A model generated the notes under the pieces. The model saw nothing but the letters and a program-made list of their open reading frames with translations, ran no database searches and was not told the DNA's origin. 64,000 nucleotides of DNA from Chloroflexota bacterium (GTDB lineage: Bacteria; Chloroflexota; Dehalococcoidia; DSTF01; JACRBR01), in the NCBI GenBank assembly GCA_028872875.1, contig JAGWOC010000006.1, positions 1 to 64,000 on the forward strand. Reading direction: 5' to 3'. The translations under genes were made by a program, and so were the position numbers. Shown in pieces: positions 9,204 through 58,348 of this stretch. Within the stretch, counting starts at the first letter, position 1; each line of letters starts with the position of its first letter.

Positions 9204-10010
9204 ATGGAACCGAAGTTCAAGGACAGCGTGGTCGTCATCACCGGTGGTGGACGGGGCATCGGCCGCGCCATCGCGCTCGAGTTCGCGGGCGAGGGCGCCA
9301 CGGTAGTGCTCGCCGGACGCCGCATGGACGCGCTCGAGACCACCGCGCGCGAGGCGGTCACCGCCGGCGGTAACGCCGATGTCATGCACTGCGACGTCGC
9401 GAAGGAGGCGCACCTGCACGCGCTCGTCGGCCACACGATCCGTACGCGGGGTAAGATCGATGTGCTCGTCAACAACGCGGGCGTCGTCGCTGGCGGCCGG
9501 CTGGACGAGATCGGCCCGGACGACGTGCGGCGCATGGTCGAGGTGAACATCTGGGCGGCGGTCCGCCTGACGCAGCTCGCGCTGCCGCACATGCGCGAGG
9601 CGGGTGCCGGCACCATCGTCAACGTCTCGTCCGTCGCCGGGCGCATCGGCCTGCCGTACTACGCGGCGTACTGCGCGAGCAAGTTCGCCCTGCGCGGCTT
9701 CAGCGAGGCGCTGCGGCGCGAGGTGCGCCCGGACGGCGTCCACGTCGTGGCCGTCTACCCGGGCGGCACCGCCACGGACATGCTGGAGAACGTCGAGTTC
9801 GACCGCGTCGGCCTGCCCGTCGCCACGGCCGAGCAGGTCGCGCGCGCCGTCGTCCGAGGCGTGCGGCGCCGCCAGCCCGAGGTGTTCGTCGGCGCCGGCG
9901 ACGCGCTCATCTCCCGCTGGAACGACCTTGCGCCGTGGACCGTCGACCTGGGCGTTGACGCCGTGCGCGAGCGGGTGCATAGCGCCGTCGCCAACCAGCG
10001 CACGAGCTAG
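9204..10010 (+). CDS. SDR family oxidoreductase
   Basis: MEPKFKDSVVVITGGGRGIGRAIALEFAGEG...VNNAGVVAGG...YYAAYCASKFALRGFSEALRRE. Confidence 0.92.
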   Translation: MEPKFKDSVVVITGGGRGIGRAIALEFAGEGATVVLAGRRMDALETTAREAVTAGGNADVMHCDVAKEAHLHALVGHTIRTRGKIDVLVNNAGVVAGGRLDEIGPDDVRRMVEVNIWAAVRLTQLALPHMREAGAGTIVNVSSVAGRIGLPYYAAYCASKFALRGFSEALRREVRPDGVHVVAVYPGGTATDMLENVEFDRVGLPVATAEQVARAVVRGVRRRQPEVFVGAGDALISRWNDLAPWTVDLGVDAVRERVHSAVANQRTS

Positions 10011-10031
10011 CCGCGCGCCGGTCGCGCGCGC

Positions 10032-10967
10032 CTACGCCTGTTCCTCGGCCTTCTTCGCCGCCTCGCGCGCGGCGATCTCCGCGTCGTCCGGCCGCACGAG
10101 CAGCACCGGCGCCCGCGACTGCAGCATCCTGTCCGCCGTGCTGCCGAGCACCGTCCGCGCCAGCCCTTCGCGCCCGTGCGTCGACATCACGACGAGGTCG
10201 ATGCGCTCGCTCTCGACGAAGTCAATGAGTTTGTCGGTCGGGTCGCCGCGCTCGACATGCGTGTCGACGGCGCCGCCGAGCGCGGCCGCGCGGCCTTCCA
10301 TGTACGCCAGCGCATCGGATTCGAGTGCTTCGTCGATGGAAGGCACGTACGTTTCGGCCGCCGTGTACGGGTACATCTGCACGGCCCACGGCACGACGCG
10401 CATGAGGCTGAGGCGAGCACCGAGCGCCGCCGCCACCTCCGTCGCGACCGATAGCGCCGCCTCCGCGAACGCGGAGCCATTGAGCGGTACGAGCACGCGC
10501 GAGAACGACGGATGGTCGCCTGCCCGCTCGAGCGCGTGCGGCCCGACGGCCAGCACCGGCACGCGAGACGCCGCGACGACGTGCGACAGGTTGCTCCCGT
10601 AGGCCCAGCGGCGGATCCCCGCCCGGCCGTGGGTCGCCACGACGATCATCCGCGCGCCAGTCTCATCCGCGGCCCGCACGATCTCGTCCGGCGCCTCGCC
10701 CGGGCGGATGACGATGCGCGTTTCGGGATGTTGCAGGCGATCGCGCACCCGCTCGAGATACGCCGTGTAGTGGGTGCTGGCCGACTCGTCGAGCTGTACG
10801 ACGAGGTCGGGAAAGCGCTTCCCGAGTTCGCCTGCTGTCCCCTCCCAGATCGTGATCAGCACCAGGTGGGTGCGCAGCGCATGCGCGATCGCCGACGCAT
10901 ACGGCAGCGCGCCTTCCGCCAGCTCCGAGCCATCGAGCGGTACCAGGATCGGTCCGTGGTGTTGCAT
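10032..10967 (-). CDS. Universal stress protein, tandem UspA domains
   Basis: ILVPLDGSELAEGALPYASAIA...MIVVATHGRAGIRRWAYGSNLSHVVAASRVPVLAV; second domain VLVPLNGSAFAEAAL...LVVMSTHGREGLARTVLGSTADRMLQSRAPVLLV. Confidence 0.95.
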   Translation of the reverse strand: MQHHGPILVPLDGSELAEGALPYASAIAHALRTHLVLITIWEGTAGELGKRFPDLVVQLDESASTHYTAYLERVRDRLQHPETRIVIRPGEAPDEIVRAADETGARMIVVATHGRAGIRRWAYGSNLSHVVAASRVPVLAVGPHALERAGDHPSFSRVLVPLNGSAFAEAALSVATEVAAALGARLSLMRVVPWAVQMYPYTAAETYVPSIDEALESDALAYMEGRAAALGGAVDTHVERGDPTDKLIDFVESERIDLVVMSTHGREGLARTVLGSTADRMLQSRAPVLLVRPDDAEIAAREAAKKAEEQA

Positions 10968-55352: not shown

Positions 55353-58202
55353 TCAGACGTCGAGGCGGAAGCCTTGGCCGCGCAGCGTGACGATGTAGCG
55401 GCGCTCGCCGCCGGCTTGGACGATGCGTTCGCGCACGCGCCGGACGAGCGCATCGAGCGCCTCCTCGGAGACGCCTTCGACGTGGGCATCGGGCCAGACG
55501 TGCGTGACGAGCTCCTCTCGGCCGATCACCTTCCCCCTGCGCTCGTAGAGGTACGCGAGCAGCCGGAACTGCTCATTGGACAGCCCCGGCCGCGCCTCGC
55601 TGCCGTGCACGTAGACGCGGCGCGTCTCCATATCGACGTGGAGCGCGGGCGGCGTCGCAGGTGGCGGCGGCGTGACAGGCGCAAGCGCATCCGGCGCCTC
55701 GCCGCCGGATGCGGACGCGCCCGCCGCGGCAGGACCGTGGCGGCGCCGGTACACGACGCCCCCGACGACGGCCGCGGCGATGGCGGCGAGCGCGATGGGG
55801 ATGCCGATGGCGAGCAGCATGCCGGTGCCGCGTGAACTGCGGCCCGCTGTCACCGCGACGGTCGACGGCGCGACGGACGTCGGCGGCGCGGCGGCGCCGA
55901 CCGTGAGCGCCAGCGCCTTCGAGGTGATGTCGGCGATGCTGGCGGTCACGGTGTACTTGCCGGGGCCGCCGGCGGCGACCTCGGCTACCGCCATGCCGTC
56001 GACGGTCTTCGCCGATCCGCCGGTGCTGACGCCGGATGCGTCCGTCAGGGTGAAGGACACGGCAGAACCATCGGGCACGGGGTCGCCGTTCATATCGACG
56101 ATGGGCCCGGCGACGAGCGGCAGCGTGCGCAGGTTGGCGACGGCGTTGGGGTTCTGCCCGTAGACGCTGACCCGGATGTCCTGCGACGGGTCGGGGCGGA
56201 CCGCGTCGTTGACGTTGTAGAAGATGCCGGCGATGTTGACCGGCGAGTGCCCCTTCGGCGTGATGTCGCCGTAGAGCGCGCGAAAGCCTGCCTCGATGGC
56301 GGCCTGCGTCTTGTTGTAGACGGCGAAGAACGCGGTGAGGCTGCTCAGCTCGGTGGAGCCGAGGTCGTACGGGACGTTGTAGGCGATCGCCACCATCGTC
56401 TTGTTGCGCAGGTCGACCGGCGGCGCATCGAGGAAGCGCTTGACGGCGCCGGATGCCGGGCGGGCATCGGGGTTGTATTCGGCAAGCGCGAAGATCAGCC
56501 ACGACGCATCGCCGACGGCTTTCGCCGTGGCGGCGTTCGCGGGGTCGGCGGGCTTGCTGAGCCAGGCGTCGAGCTCCCCGAAGCTGATGGTCGAGACATC
56601 CTCCGGTTTCAGGCGGCCCTGGCCGGCCGGGCCGTACAACGCGAGCAGCGTGTTCTGCAGGTCGAGCTTGGACTTGATGCGATAGGGGTAGCAGTCCGCC
56701 CAGCACTCGACGATCAGCACCTTCTCCGGCGAGATGGGGCCGCGCGGCAGGCGGGCGCGCAGCTCGCTGACGCTGGCCGGCTGCACGAGGGTCAGCGCGT
56801 CCTCGGCGAGCGACCGCATCTCGGCGTCGCCCTGGCCGGCGGCTGCGGTGGCGGCCGTGGGGTCGGCGAGCACCTGGCTGAGCTGGAGCTTCGGGTAGAG
56901 CTTGAGTTTGGCGGCGATGATGTGGCGGACGGCGTCATCGACGCGGCGCCGGAAGTCGGGGTCGGCGGCGTACTGCTGGCGCATGTAGAGGATGCTGTCC
57001 TGGATGACGGGGAGCTGGTTGTCCCTCCATCCGGGGTGCGCCGGGTCGTGGTAGAACTCGACGAACGGCAGCAGGTCGCTGCCGGCCATGAGCGCGTCGC
57101 GCACAACGGTGCGGTTCGGGAAGTCGGGTTGCCCCTGCTCCTGGGCGTACCACTTCTTGATCGCCGGCACGCCGAGCGAGTCGCTCATCATGAAGTGGTT
57201 GGCGCGCCAGCTCGAGAACTCGGGGAGCTGGAGCAGGGTCGTCAGCGCGGCGCGGTCGAGCGAGATCGGGCGGGTGAAGGGCGCGGGCGACGACGGCACG
57301 AAGTTCCGGTAGCGGATGTGCGAGACCATCATGCCGTCGGTCGTGCCGAGCGATGCGCCGGCCGCGACGCGGTCGACCTCGGCGAAGGGGGCGAGCTCCG
57401 TCTGGCGGAGCTGGTCGAGGGACTTGTTGACGGTCGGCACCTGGTCGTCCGTCGAGCGGTCGCTTTCGCCGTGGCCGGGGAAGTGCTTGGCGACGGTGAG
57501 CATGCGGCCGGCGCTGCCCTCGTGGACGCCGCGGACGAAGGCGCGGCCGAGCTCGCCGACCCAGGTGGCGTTGCCGCCGAACGAGCGTACGCCGATGTCG
57601 CCGCCGCCGCCCGAGCGCGGCGTATCGAGCACATCGACCGCGGGACCGAGGAGCATGTTGATGCCGGCCGCGGAGAGCTCCTTGCCGACGATCTGGCCGG
57701 TCGCCTCGGCGTGCTTCTTGCTCCAGGTGGCGCCGATGGTCATGTTGTCCGGGATCGCCGTGTAGCCGTTCGTCACGTTGGTGAGCGGGTAGAGGTCGCC
57801 TTCGTTGTCGGTCGCGATGAGGAGCGGGATGAAGTAGGGGTTGGCGGCGTCGCCGCGCCGCGTGGCCTCGTAGGCGCGCTGCTGGAGGCCGTTGGTGAGC
57901 GCCGCGATCTGGGCGGGCGTGTCGCCCCGGTTGACGATGTTGCCGTTGCTGGCGGTGACGAGGACCGAGCCCACCTTGAAGTCGCGGATGAGGGACGCGA
58001 TATCGGACGTCGCGGAGACGTCGCTACCGACGAAGTTGACCATCACGAGCTGCCCGACGCGCTCATCCACGGTGAGCGAGGAGACGACGCGATCGATCAT
58101 CGCGCTGTCGGGCCCGGGGGTCTGCGCGCGGGTGACAGCGGGGCGGTGCGCGCCGGCCAGTGCGAGCGCGAGCGCAACGGCGGCGAGCAACGCAAGGCGC
58201 AT
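55353..58202 (-). CDS. Signal peptide-GH3-Ig-like-TM-winged-helix (OmpR/PhoB-type DNA-binding) fusion protein
   Basis: MRLALLAAVALALALAGAHRP...; GH3 VAKHFPGHGESDRSTDDQVPTV and MMSDSLGVPAIKKW; Ig-like region; TM GMLLAIGIPIALAAIAAAVVGGVVYRRRHG; C-term LSNEQFRLLAYLYERRGKVIGREELVTHVWPDAHVEGVSEEALDALVRRVRERIVQAGGERRYIVTLRGQGFRL. ORF open to 58268. Confidence 0.9.
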   Translation of the reverse strand: MRLALLAAVALALALAGAHRPAVTRAQTPGPDSAMIDRVVSSLTVDERVGQLVMVNFVGSDVSATSDIASLIRDFKVGSVLVTASNGNIVNRGDTPAQIAALTNGLQQRAYEATRRGDAANPYFIPLLIATDNEGDLYPLTNVTNGYTAIPDNMTIGATWSKKHAEATGQIVGKELSAAGINMLLGPAVDVLDTPRSGGGGDIGVRSFGGNATWVGELGRAFVRGVHEGSAGRMLTVAKHFPGHGESDRSTDDQVPTVNKSLDQLRQTELAPFAEVDRVAAGASLGTTDGMMVSHIRYRNFVPSSPAPFTRPISLDRAALTTLLQLPEFSSWRANHFMMSDSLGVPAIKKWYAQEQGQPDFPNRTVVRDALMAGSDLLPFVEFYHDPAHPGWRDNQLPVIQDSILYMRQQYAADPDFRRRVDDAVRHIIAAKLKLYPKLQLSQVLADPTAATAAAGQGDAEMRSLAEDALTLVQPASVSELRARLPRGPISPEKVLIVECWADCYPYRIKSKLDLQNTLLALYGPAGQGRLKPEDVSTISFGELDAWLSKPADPANAATAKAVGDASWLIFALAEYNPDARPASGAVKRFLDAPPVDLRNKTMVAIAYNVPYDLGSTELSSLTAFFAVYNKTQAAIEAGFRALYGDITPKGHSPVNIAGIFYNVNDAVRPDPSQDIRVSVYGQNPNAVANLRTLPLVAGPIVDMNGDPVPDGSAVSFTLTDASGVSTGGSAKTVDGMAVAEVAAGGPGKYTVTASIADITSKALALTVGAAAPPTSVAPSTVAVTAGRSSRGTGMLLAIGIPIALAAIAAAVVGGVVYRRRHGPAAAGASASGGEAPDALAPVTPPPPATPPALHVDMETRRVYVHGSEARPGLSNEQFRLLAYLYERRGKVIGREELVTHVWPDAHVEGVSEEALDALVRRVRERIVQAGGERRYIVTLRGQGFRLDV

Positions 58203-58348
58203 CCCGGTCCGAGTGCGCGAGCGGCGGGACGGCGTGCGGCAGGACGCGGTGGACATGCGTGCGGCCACGTGTGCGATTATGCCACTCCGGCGCGCTCGGG
58301 GGTATGTCGCATCCGAAGGACGACGCCGCGGTCAGCAGGCGCGTTGCG

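Follow-up and report, generated by a model that had tools for sequence, protein, structure and literature searches.

What does a glycosidase-type domain do on the same polypeptide as a DNA-binding winged helix? In the window (the whole 64,000-nucleotide stretch of Chloroflexota DNA analyzed here), one minus-strand gene had been predicted from the letters alone to encode a signal peptide, a glycoside hydrolase family 3 (GH3) domain, an Ig-like segment, a single transmembrane (TM) helix and a C-terminal OmpR/PhoB-type winged helix (wHTH), and had been proposed to be a one-component sensor of glycans or muropeptides. The analysis below makes it likely that the product is a membrane-tethered one-component transcription regulator, formed by merging the GH3 sensor and the winged helix of a three-gene relay. 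Regulators of this kind are already known; a GH3 ectodomain on one of them, and the three-gene cluster behind it, are apparently undescribed. The literature searched, which excluded most subscription journals, held no report of the cluster or of a combination of GH3 with Trans_reg_C.

One reading frame links a GH3 ectodomain to a winged helix

The minus-strand frame from 58268 to 55356 comprises 971 codons and is free of internal stops in the window sequence. The original prediction placed the gene at 55353-58202; its single open frame stands, while the ATG at 58202 gives way to a GTG at 58268 as the probable start. This GTG is favored because a CATAAT hexamer precedes it by 7 nt, with similar elements ahead of the starts of most relatives. 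Judged from these elements, transcripts of the fusion gene are probably leaderless. The features of the gene are as follows.

55353..58268, minus strand: whole gene (GTG start, 971 aa; 949 aa if the ATG at 58202 is used)
58276..58281, minus strand: CATAAT, -10-like hexamer, 7 nt before the GTG (read from the sequence)
58149..58211, minus strand: N-terminal hydrophobic helix, residues 20-40, signal peptide or signal anchor (TM/signal prediction, model)
57069..58073, minus strand: GH3 N-terminal (alpha/beta)8 barrel, NagZ type (Pfam, Foldseek, PDB profile search)
57447..57455, minus strand: S-T-D, residues 272-274, at the place of the NagZ Asp-[Ser/Thr]-His dyad, which is absent (alignment)
57180..57182, minus strand: Asp363, at the place of the GH3 catalytic nucleophile, kept (alignment)
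56199..56726, minus strand: GH3_C-like alpha/beta sandwich, residues 515-690 (weak Pfam match; model)
55899..56153, minus strand: Ig-like (Big_1-like) membrane-proximal domain, residues 706-790 (Pfam 18 bits, below cut-off; all-beta in the model)
55737..55826, minus strand: single TM helix, residues 815-844, with an Arg cluster at its end (TM prediction, model)
55644..55736, minus strand: Ala/Pro-rich unstructured linker, residues 845-875 (pLDDT 35-43)
55356..55643, minus strand: OmpR/PhoB-type winged helix, residues 876-971, complete, predicted cytoplasmic (Pfam, tree, model, dN/dS)

Pfam identifies Glyco_hydro_3 (E 2.6e-41, 142.5 bits, cut-off 27) and Trans_reg_C (E 2.7e-16, 59.8 bits, cut-off 26.2), with weak matches to Glyco_hydro_3_C and Big_1 under the cut-off. 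An AlphaFold2 model of the fusion protein, built on an alignment of 46 relatives (mean pLDDT 87, pTM 0.79), reveals in order the N-terminal helix, barrel, sandwich, beta domain, TM helix 815-844, a low-confidence linker and the winged helix 876-971. Assignment to the GH3 fold family is further supported by Foldseek, whose best solved match is the two-domain Bacillus subtilis NagZ with GlcNAc-MurNAc (E 3e-32, target TM-score 0.77), and a PDB profile search of the fusion protein agrees, placing B. subtilis NagZ near the top. Pfam, TM prediction and the model thus bear out the domains named beforehand and their order, including its reversal relative to ToxR/CadC regulators. That list was incomplete, since it noted neither the GH3_C-like sandwich between the barrel and the Ig-like domain nor the loss of the Asp-His dyad.

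The TM helix is rich in Ala and Gly, and an Arg cluster follows on its C-terminal side in five of five full-length fusion copies. Its recurrence in each copy predicts an orientation with the winged helix in the cytoplasm and the GH3 domain outside. This N-out/C-in topology is well supported by the sequences, and the concern that the winged helix might be exported is thereby answered. With a DNA-binding domain and a TM region in one protein (Pfam, TM prediction, model), the fusion has the architecture of a transmembrane transcription regulator, and would be expected to bind specific DNA from the membrane. It is not a PhoB/OmpR response regulator, since Pfam finds no receiver domain in it and its winged helix falls outside those of response regulators in the tree described below.

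The fusion recurs and its winged helix is under purifying selection

An artefact (a frameshift, a chimeric contig or two separate genes) would be in keeping with the origin of the sequence from a MAG and with the copy in genome G104 (48% identity; L016 / L045), which has three stop codons in its GH3 part and an open winged-helix part, and which may be either a decayed pseudogene or the result of sequence or assembly errors. Against such an origin, open full-length frames occur in five genomes at 41-71% identity to that of the window, with full-length fusions in G016 (71% identity), G191 (68%), G051 (64%) and G100 (41%), and further fragments are cut by contig edges in G231 (94%) and G119 (39%). 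Recurrence of the same fusion in independent genomes rules out an assembly join or frameshift; the fusion is real, and we regard an artefact as next to impossible. In fact, every long homologue in our sample of the window's class is fused. Phage records match the GH3 part only, all at less than 40% identity.

The winged helix is the best-conserved region of the protein, with 79-82% identity within the family and 53% at the greatest distance, and its dN/dS of 0.05-0.20 indicates purifying selection. The TM helix and linker evolve fastest (dN/dS 0.3-0.6).

The surroundings of the fused gene differ in each genome, and no synteny was found between the fusion genomes. Their neighborhoods hold no glycan-related genes near the fused gene, the fusion loci yielded no target promoter or conserved neighbor, and the DNA upstream of the fused genes gave no convincing candidate for a shared operator. 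We note a long regulator-like gene with a MalT-like N-terminal sequence near the fused gene in two relatives (L049:13567-16809, L044:4009-7263), which may be chance.

The GH3 domain has lost the catalytic dyad of NagZ

In NagZ enzymes, an Asp-His dyad on a barrel loop serves as acid/base (PMC5104943). All 14 soluble GH3 proteins sampled from the class and phylum carry this dyad, as against none of 52 relatives (5 fusions and the 47 cluster relatives described below). The fusion therefore lacks this hallmark of a NagZ-type beta-N-acetylglucosaminidase, and it retains the nucleophile and the pocket: Asp154, Arg228, Lys261, His262 and Asp363 are conserved in all five fusions. The cluster relatives have lost pocket residues, with Asp154 kept in 4/47, Lys261 in 28/47 and the nucleophile in 43/47.

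The fusions carry Asp or Glu where the dyad His stood, and acidic acid/bases function in other GH3 enzymes. NagZ chemistry as known would be unavailable to the fusion, and catalysis itself may still be possible. An active cell-surface beta-N-acetylhexosaminidase or other glycosidase, whose turnover is read out by the winged helix and whose acid is Asp/Glu274 or a residue of the GH3_C-like domain, would explain why Asp363 and the sugar-binding residues are invariant in the fusions and why the fusion is the only GH3 protein of the window's genome. The absence of the dyad from all 52 proteins and the decay of the pocket in the kinase-linked relatives, as expected of a receptor lineage, make such an enzyme improbable. 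The dyad loss points instead to sensing over NagZ catalysis, and the fold of NagZ, an enzyme of peptidoglycan recycling, together with the retained pocket residues makes the sensing of glycans or muropeptides plausible.

Relatives outside the class adjoin a kinase and an FHA-winged-helix gene

We searched the family profile over 400 genomes of the phylum and read the surrounding DNA at all 47 loci with a long GH3 homologue outside the window's class. These homologues have no winged helix; two or three predicted TM helices close the chain. At 25 of the 47 loci, which span eight families in the resource's numbering, a Ser/Thr kinase gene comes after the GH3 gene, usually in the opposite orientation, with an FHA-winged-helix gene next in line. 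Of the remaining loci, three have the kinase without the FHA-winged-helix gene, contig ends truncate another three, and ten of one genus and six others are without both neighbors. A histidine kinase and a response regulator had been the partners first expected beside the GH3 relatives; Pfam gave a Ser/Thr kinase and an FHA-wHTH protein instead, identities that were confirmed on four example loci.

The cluster kinases share 48-81% identity with one another, and in 26 of 28 the frame stops at the terminal TM helix, so that they are tail-anchored and without an ectodomain. Because the cluster kinase itself lacks an outside part, the GH3 protein is a natural candidate for the role of its outside sensor. 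If true, the gene clusters predict in the GH3 protein the missing sensor of a kinase without one.

Three further observations concern these loci. The divergent promoter region between the kinase and FHA-wHTH genes carries the element TTCGGCGT (pattern [AT][CT]TCGGCGT), always in one orientation, in 13 of 25 cases as against at most 2/25 in shuffles, a count in which genome relatedness is uncontrolled (L080, L082, L083, L085-L087, L090, L091, L118, L120-L122 and L137); it is a candidate operator or promoter element. At 31/47 loci the GH3 gene has a glycerophosphodiester phosphodiesterase-like gene upstream, and at 25 of the 47 a MoxR-like ATPase gene (e.g., L086:8724-9476 and 9551-10927), both named by sequence appearance.

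The fused winged helix is kin to that of the three-gene cluster

In a tree of 50 winged helices, the eight fused ones cluster together (98/90), and they make up a larger group (99/97) with the GH3-linked FHA-winged helices. Response-regulator winged helices of the window's genome and other FHA-winged helices of the class fall outside this larger group. Both the GH3 and the winged-helix parts of the fusion are homologous to those of the three-gene cluster, and the recognition-helix region closely resembles its counterpart in the FHA-wHTH partners. This similarity and the strong purifying selection on the domain speak against a winged helix that has lost DNA binding and acts as the cytoplasmic protein-contact module of a surface glycosidase; winged helices can in general bind proteins, and we nonetheless consider such a module very unlikely here.

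In the window's genome (95.5% complete), Pfam finds no FHA match, no further GH3 protein and no Pkinase match that reaches the cut-off; a direct fusion stands in place of the separate kinase and FHA domain of the cluster. Similarly, a kinase homologue at E < 1e-20 is missing from five of the six fusion genomes of the order, and the match in the sixth reaches 31-35% identity, as compared with the range given above among cluster kinases. In two genomes of the same order without the fusion, G137 and G070 (L145, L146), other FHA-wHTH genes adjoin kinase-like genes.

The simplest account, given the winged-helix kinship and the absence of kinase and FHA domain from the window's genome, is that the fusion most likely joined the GH3 sensor to the DNA-binding end of the relay, dropping the kinase and FHA steps. 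The GH3 tree alone does not fix the direction, from separate genes to fusion or the reverse. The fusion is favored as the derived state, since FHA-winged helices also occur outside this winged-helix group.

Signaling by the fusion protein

The one-component sensor put forward in the original prediction is well supported, as the GH3 protein elsewhere adjoins a kinase and an FHA-winged-helix protein and the fused winged helix is kin to that of this regulator. We propose that such a sensor would work in four steps: (I) the outside two-domain NagZ-type GH3 receptor would bind a glycan, for which an amino-sugar or a fragment of peptidoglycan is the likeliest candidate, (II) binding would change the ectodomain or its pairing, (III) the signal would travel inward along the Ig-like stalk and through the lone TM helix, and (IV) the flexibly tethered winged helices would bind DNA near the membrane, at tandem sites as for OmpR-type domains. 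How a signal would pass a single TM helix and a 30-residue disordered linker is not evident, which is a point against the one-component model.

A protein cut in its TM helix by a rhomboid-type or other intramembrane protease upon ligand binding, from which the winged helix moves to the DNA as in Notch-like type I proteins, would be compatible with the Ala/Gly-rich TM helix, the disordered linker, and the single rhomboid and several M50 proteases that the window's genome encodes. Such proteases are near universal (14/14 control genomes) and hence nonspecific, and the N-out/C-in topology is the wrong orientation for site-2 proteases. These release factors of the RsgI or RseA type, to which, on general grounds, this orientation appears unsuited. 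Proteolytic release, raised in the original prediction, is possible but unsupported, and we judge it unlikely.

Returning to the tethered regulator, we lean modestly towards placing it in an undescribed family of membrane glycan receptors, in which a catalytically retired NagZ fold would, in Chloroflexota, feed an ectodomain-less kinase and an FHA-winged-helix protein or, when fused, the same winged helix directly, converting a phospho-relay into a one-component switch. If true, a phylum with little-studied signaling would gain a cell-wall-type sugar sensor, and the fusion would provide an example of a Ser/Thr-kinase pathway collapsed into one protein as well as a ToxR-like scaffold in reversed order.

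Comparison with known systems

Transmembrane transcription regulators abound, with 50,302 listed in a single survey (PMC10269533). Like ToxR and CadC, the fusion combines a cytoplasmic OmpR-type winged helix, one TM helix and an outside sensor in one polypeptide (PMC10269533). In contrast to their N-terminal cytoplasmic winged helix and C-terminal outside sensor, it has an N-terminal sensor and a C-terminal winged helix in an N-out arrangement, its ectodomain is a GH3/NagZ-fold assembly of about 750 residues, and its winged helix descends with FHA-wHTH relatives. By analogy, the fusion may work like ToxR/CadC regulators; since domain order and winged-helix descent differ, it is no member of their family.

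RsgI6 of Clostridium thermocellum is an anti-sigma factor whose outside GH10 domain has very low activity and acts as a polysaccharide sensor (PMC4711584, PMC12203970). It likewise uses a glycosidase-fold ectodomain to sense across one TM helix and control transcription, but belongs to an unrelated GH family, has N-in topology, carries no DNA-binding domain and acts via a sigma factor and intramembrane proteolysis. B. subtilis NagZ (YbbD; PDB 3bmx/4gyj) shares the two-domain GH3 fold, but is an enzyme with an intact Asp-His dyad and without the TM-winged-helix part. The three-gene relatives resemble EmbR-PknH of Mycobacterium (PMC4601284), where an OmpR-type winged helix and an FHA domain also stand under a Ser/Thr kinase; EmbR differs in its reverse order (wHTH-BTAD-FHA), PknH has its own ectodomain, and the pair has no GH3 partner.
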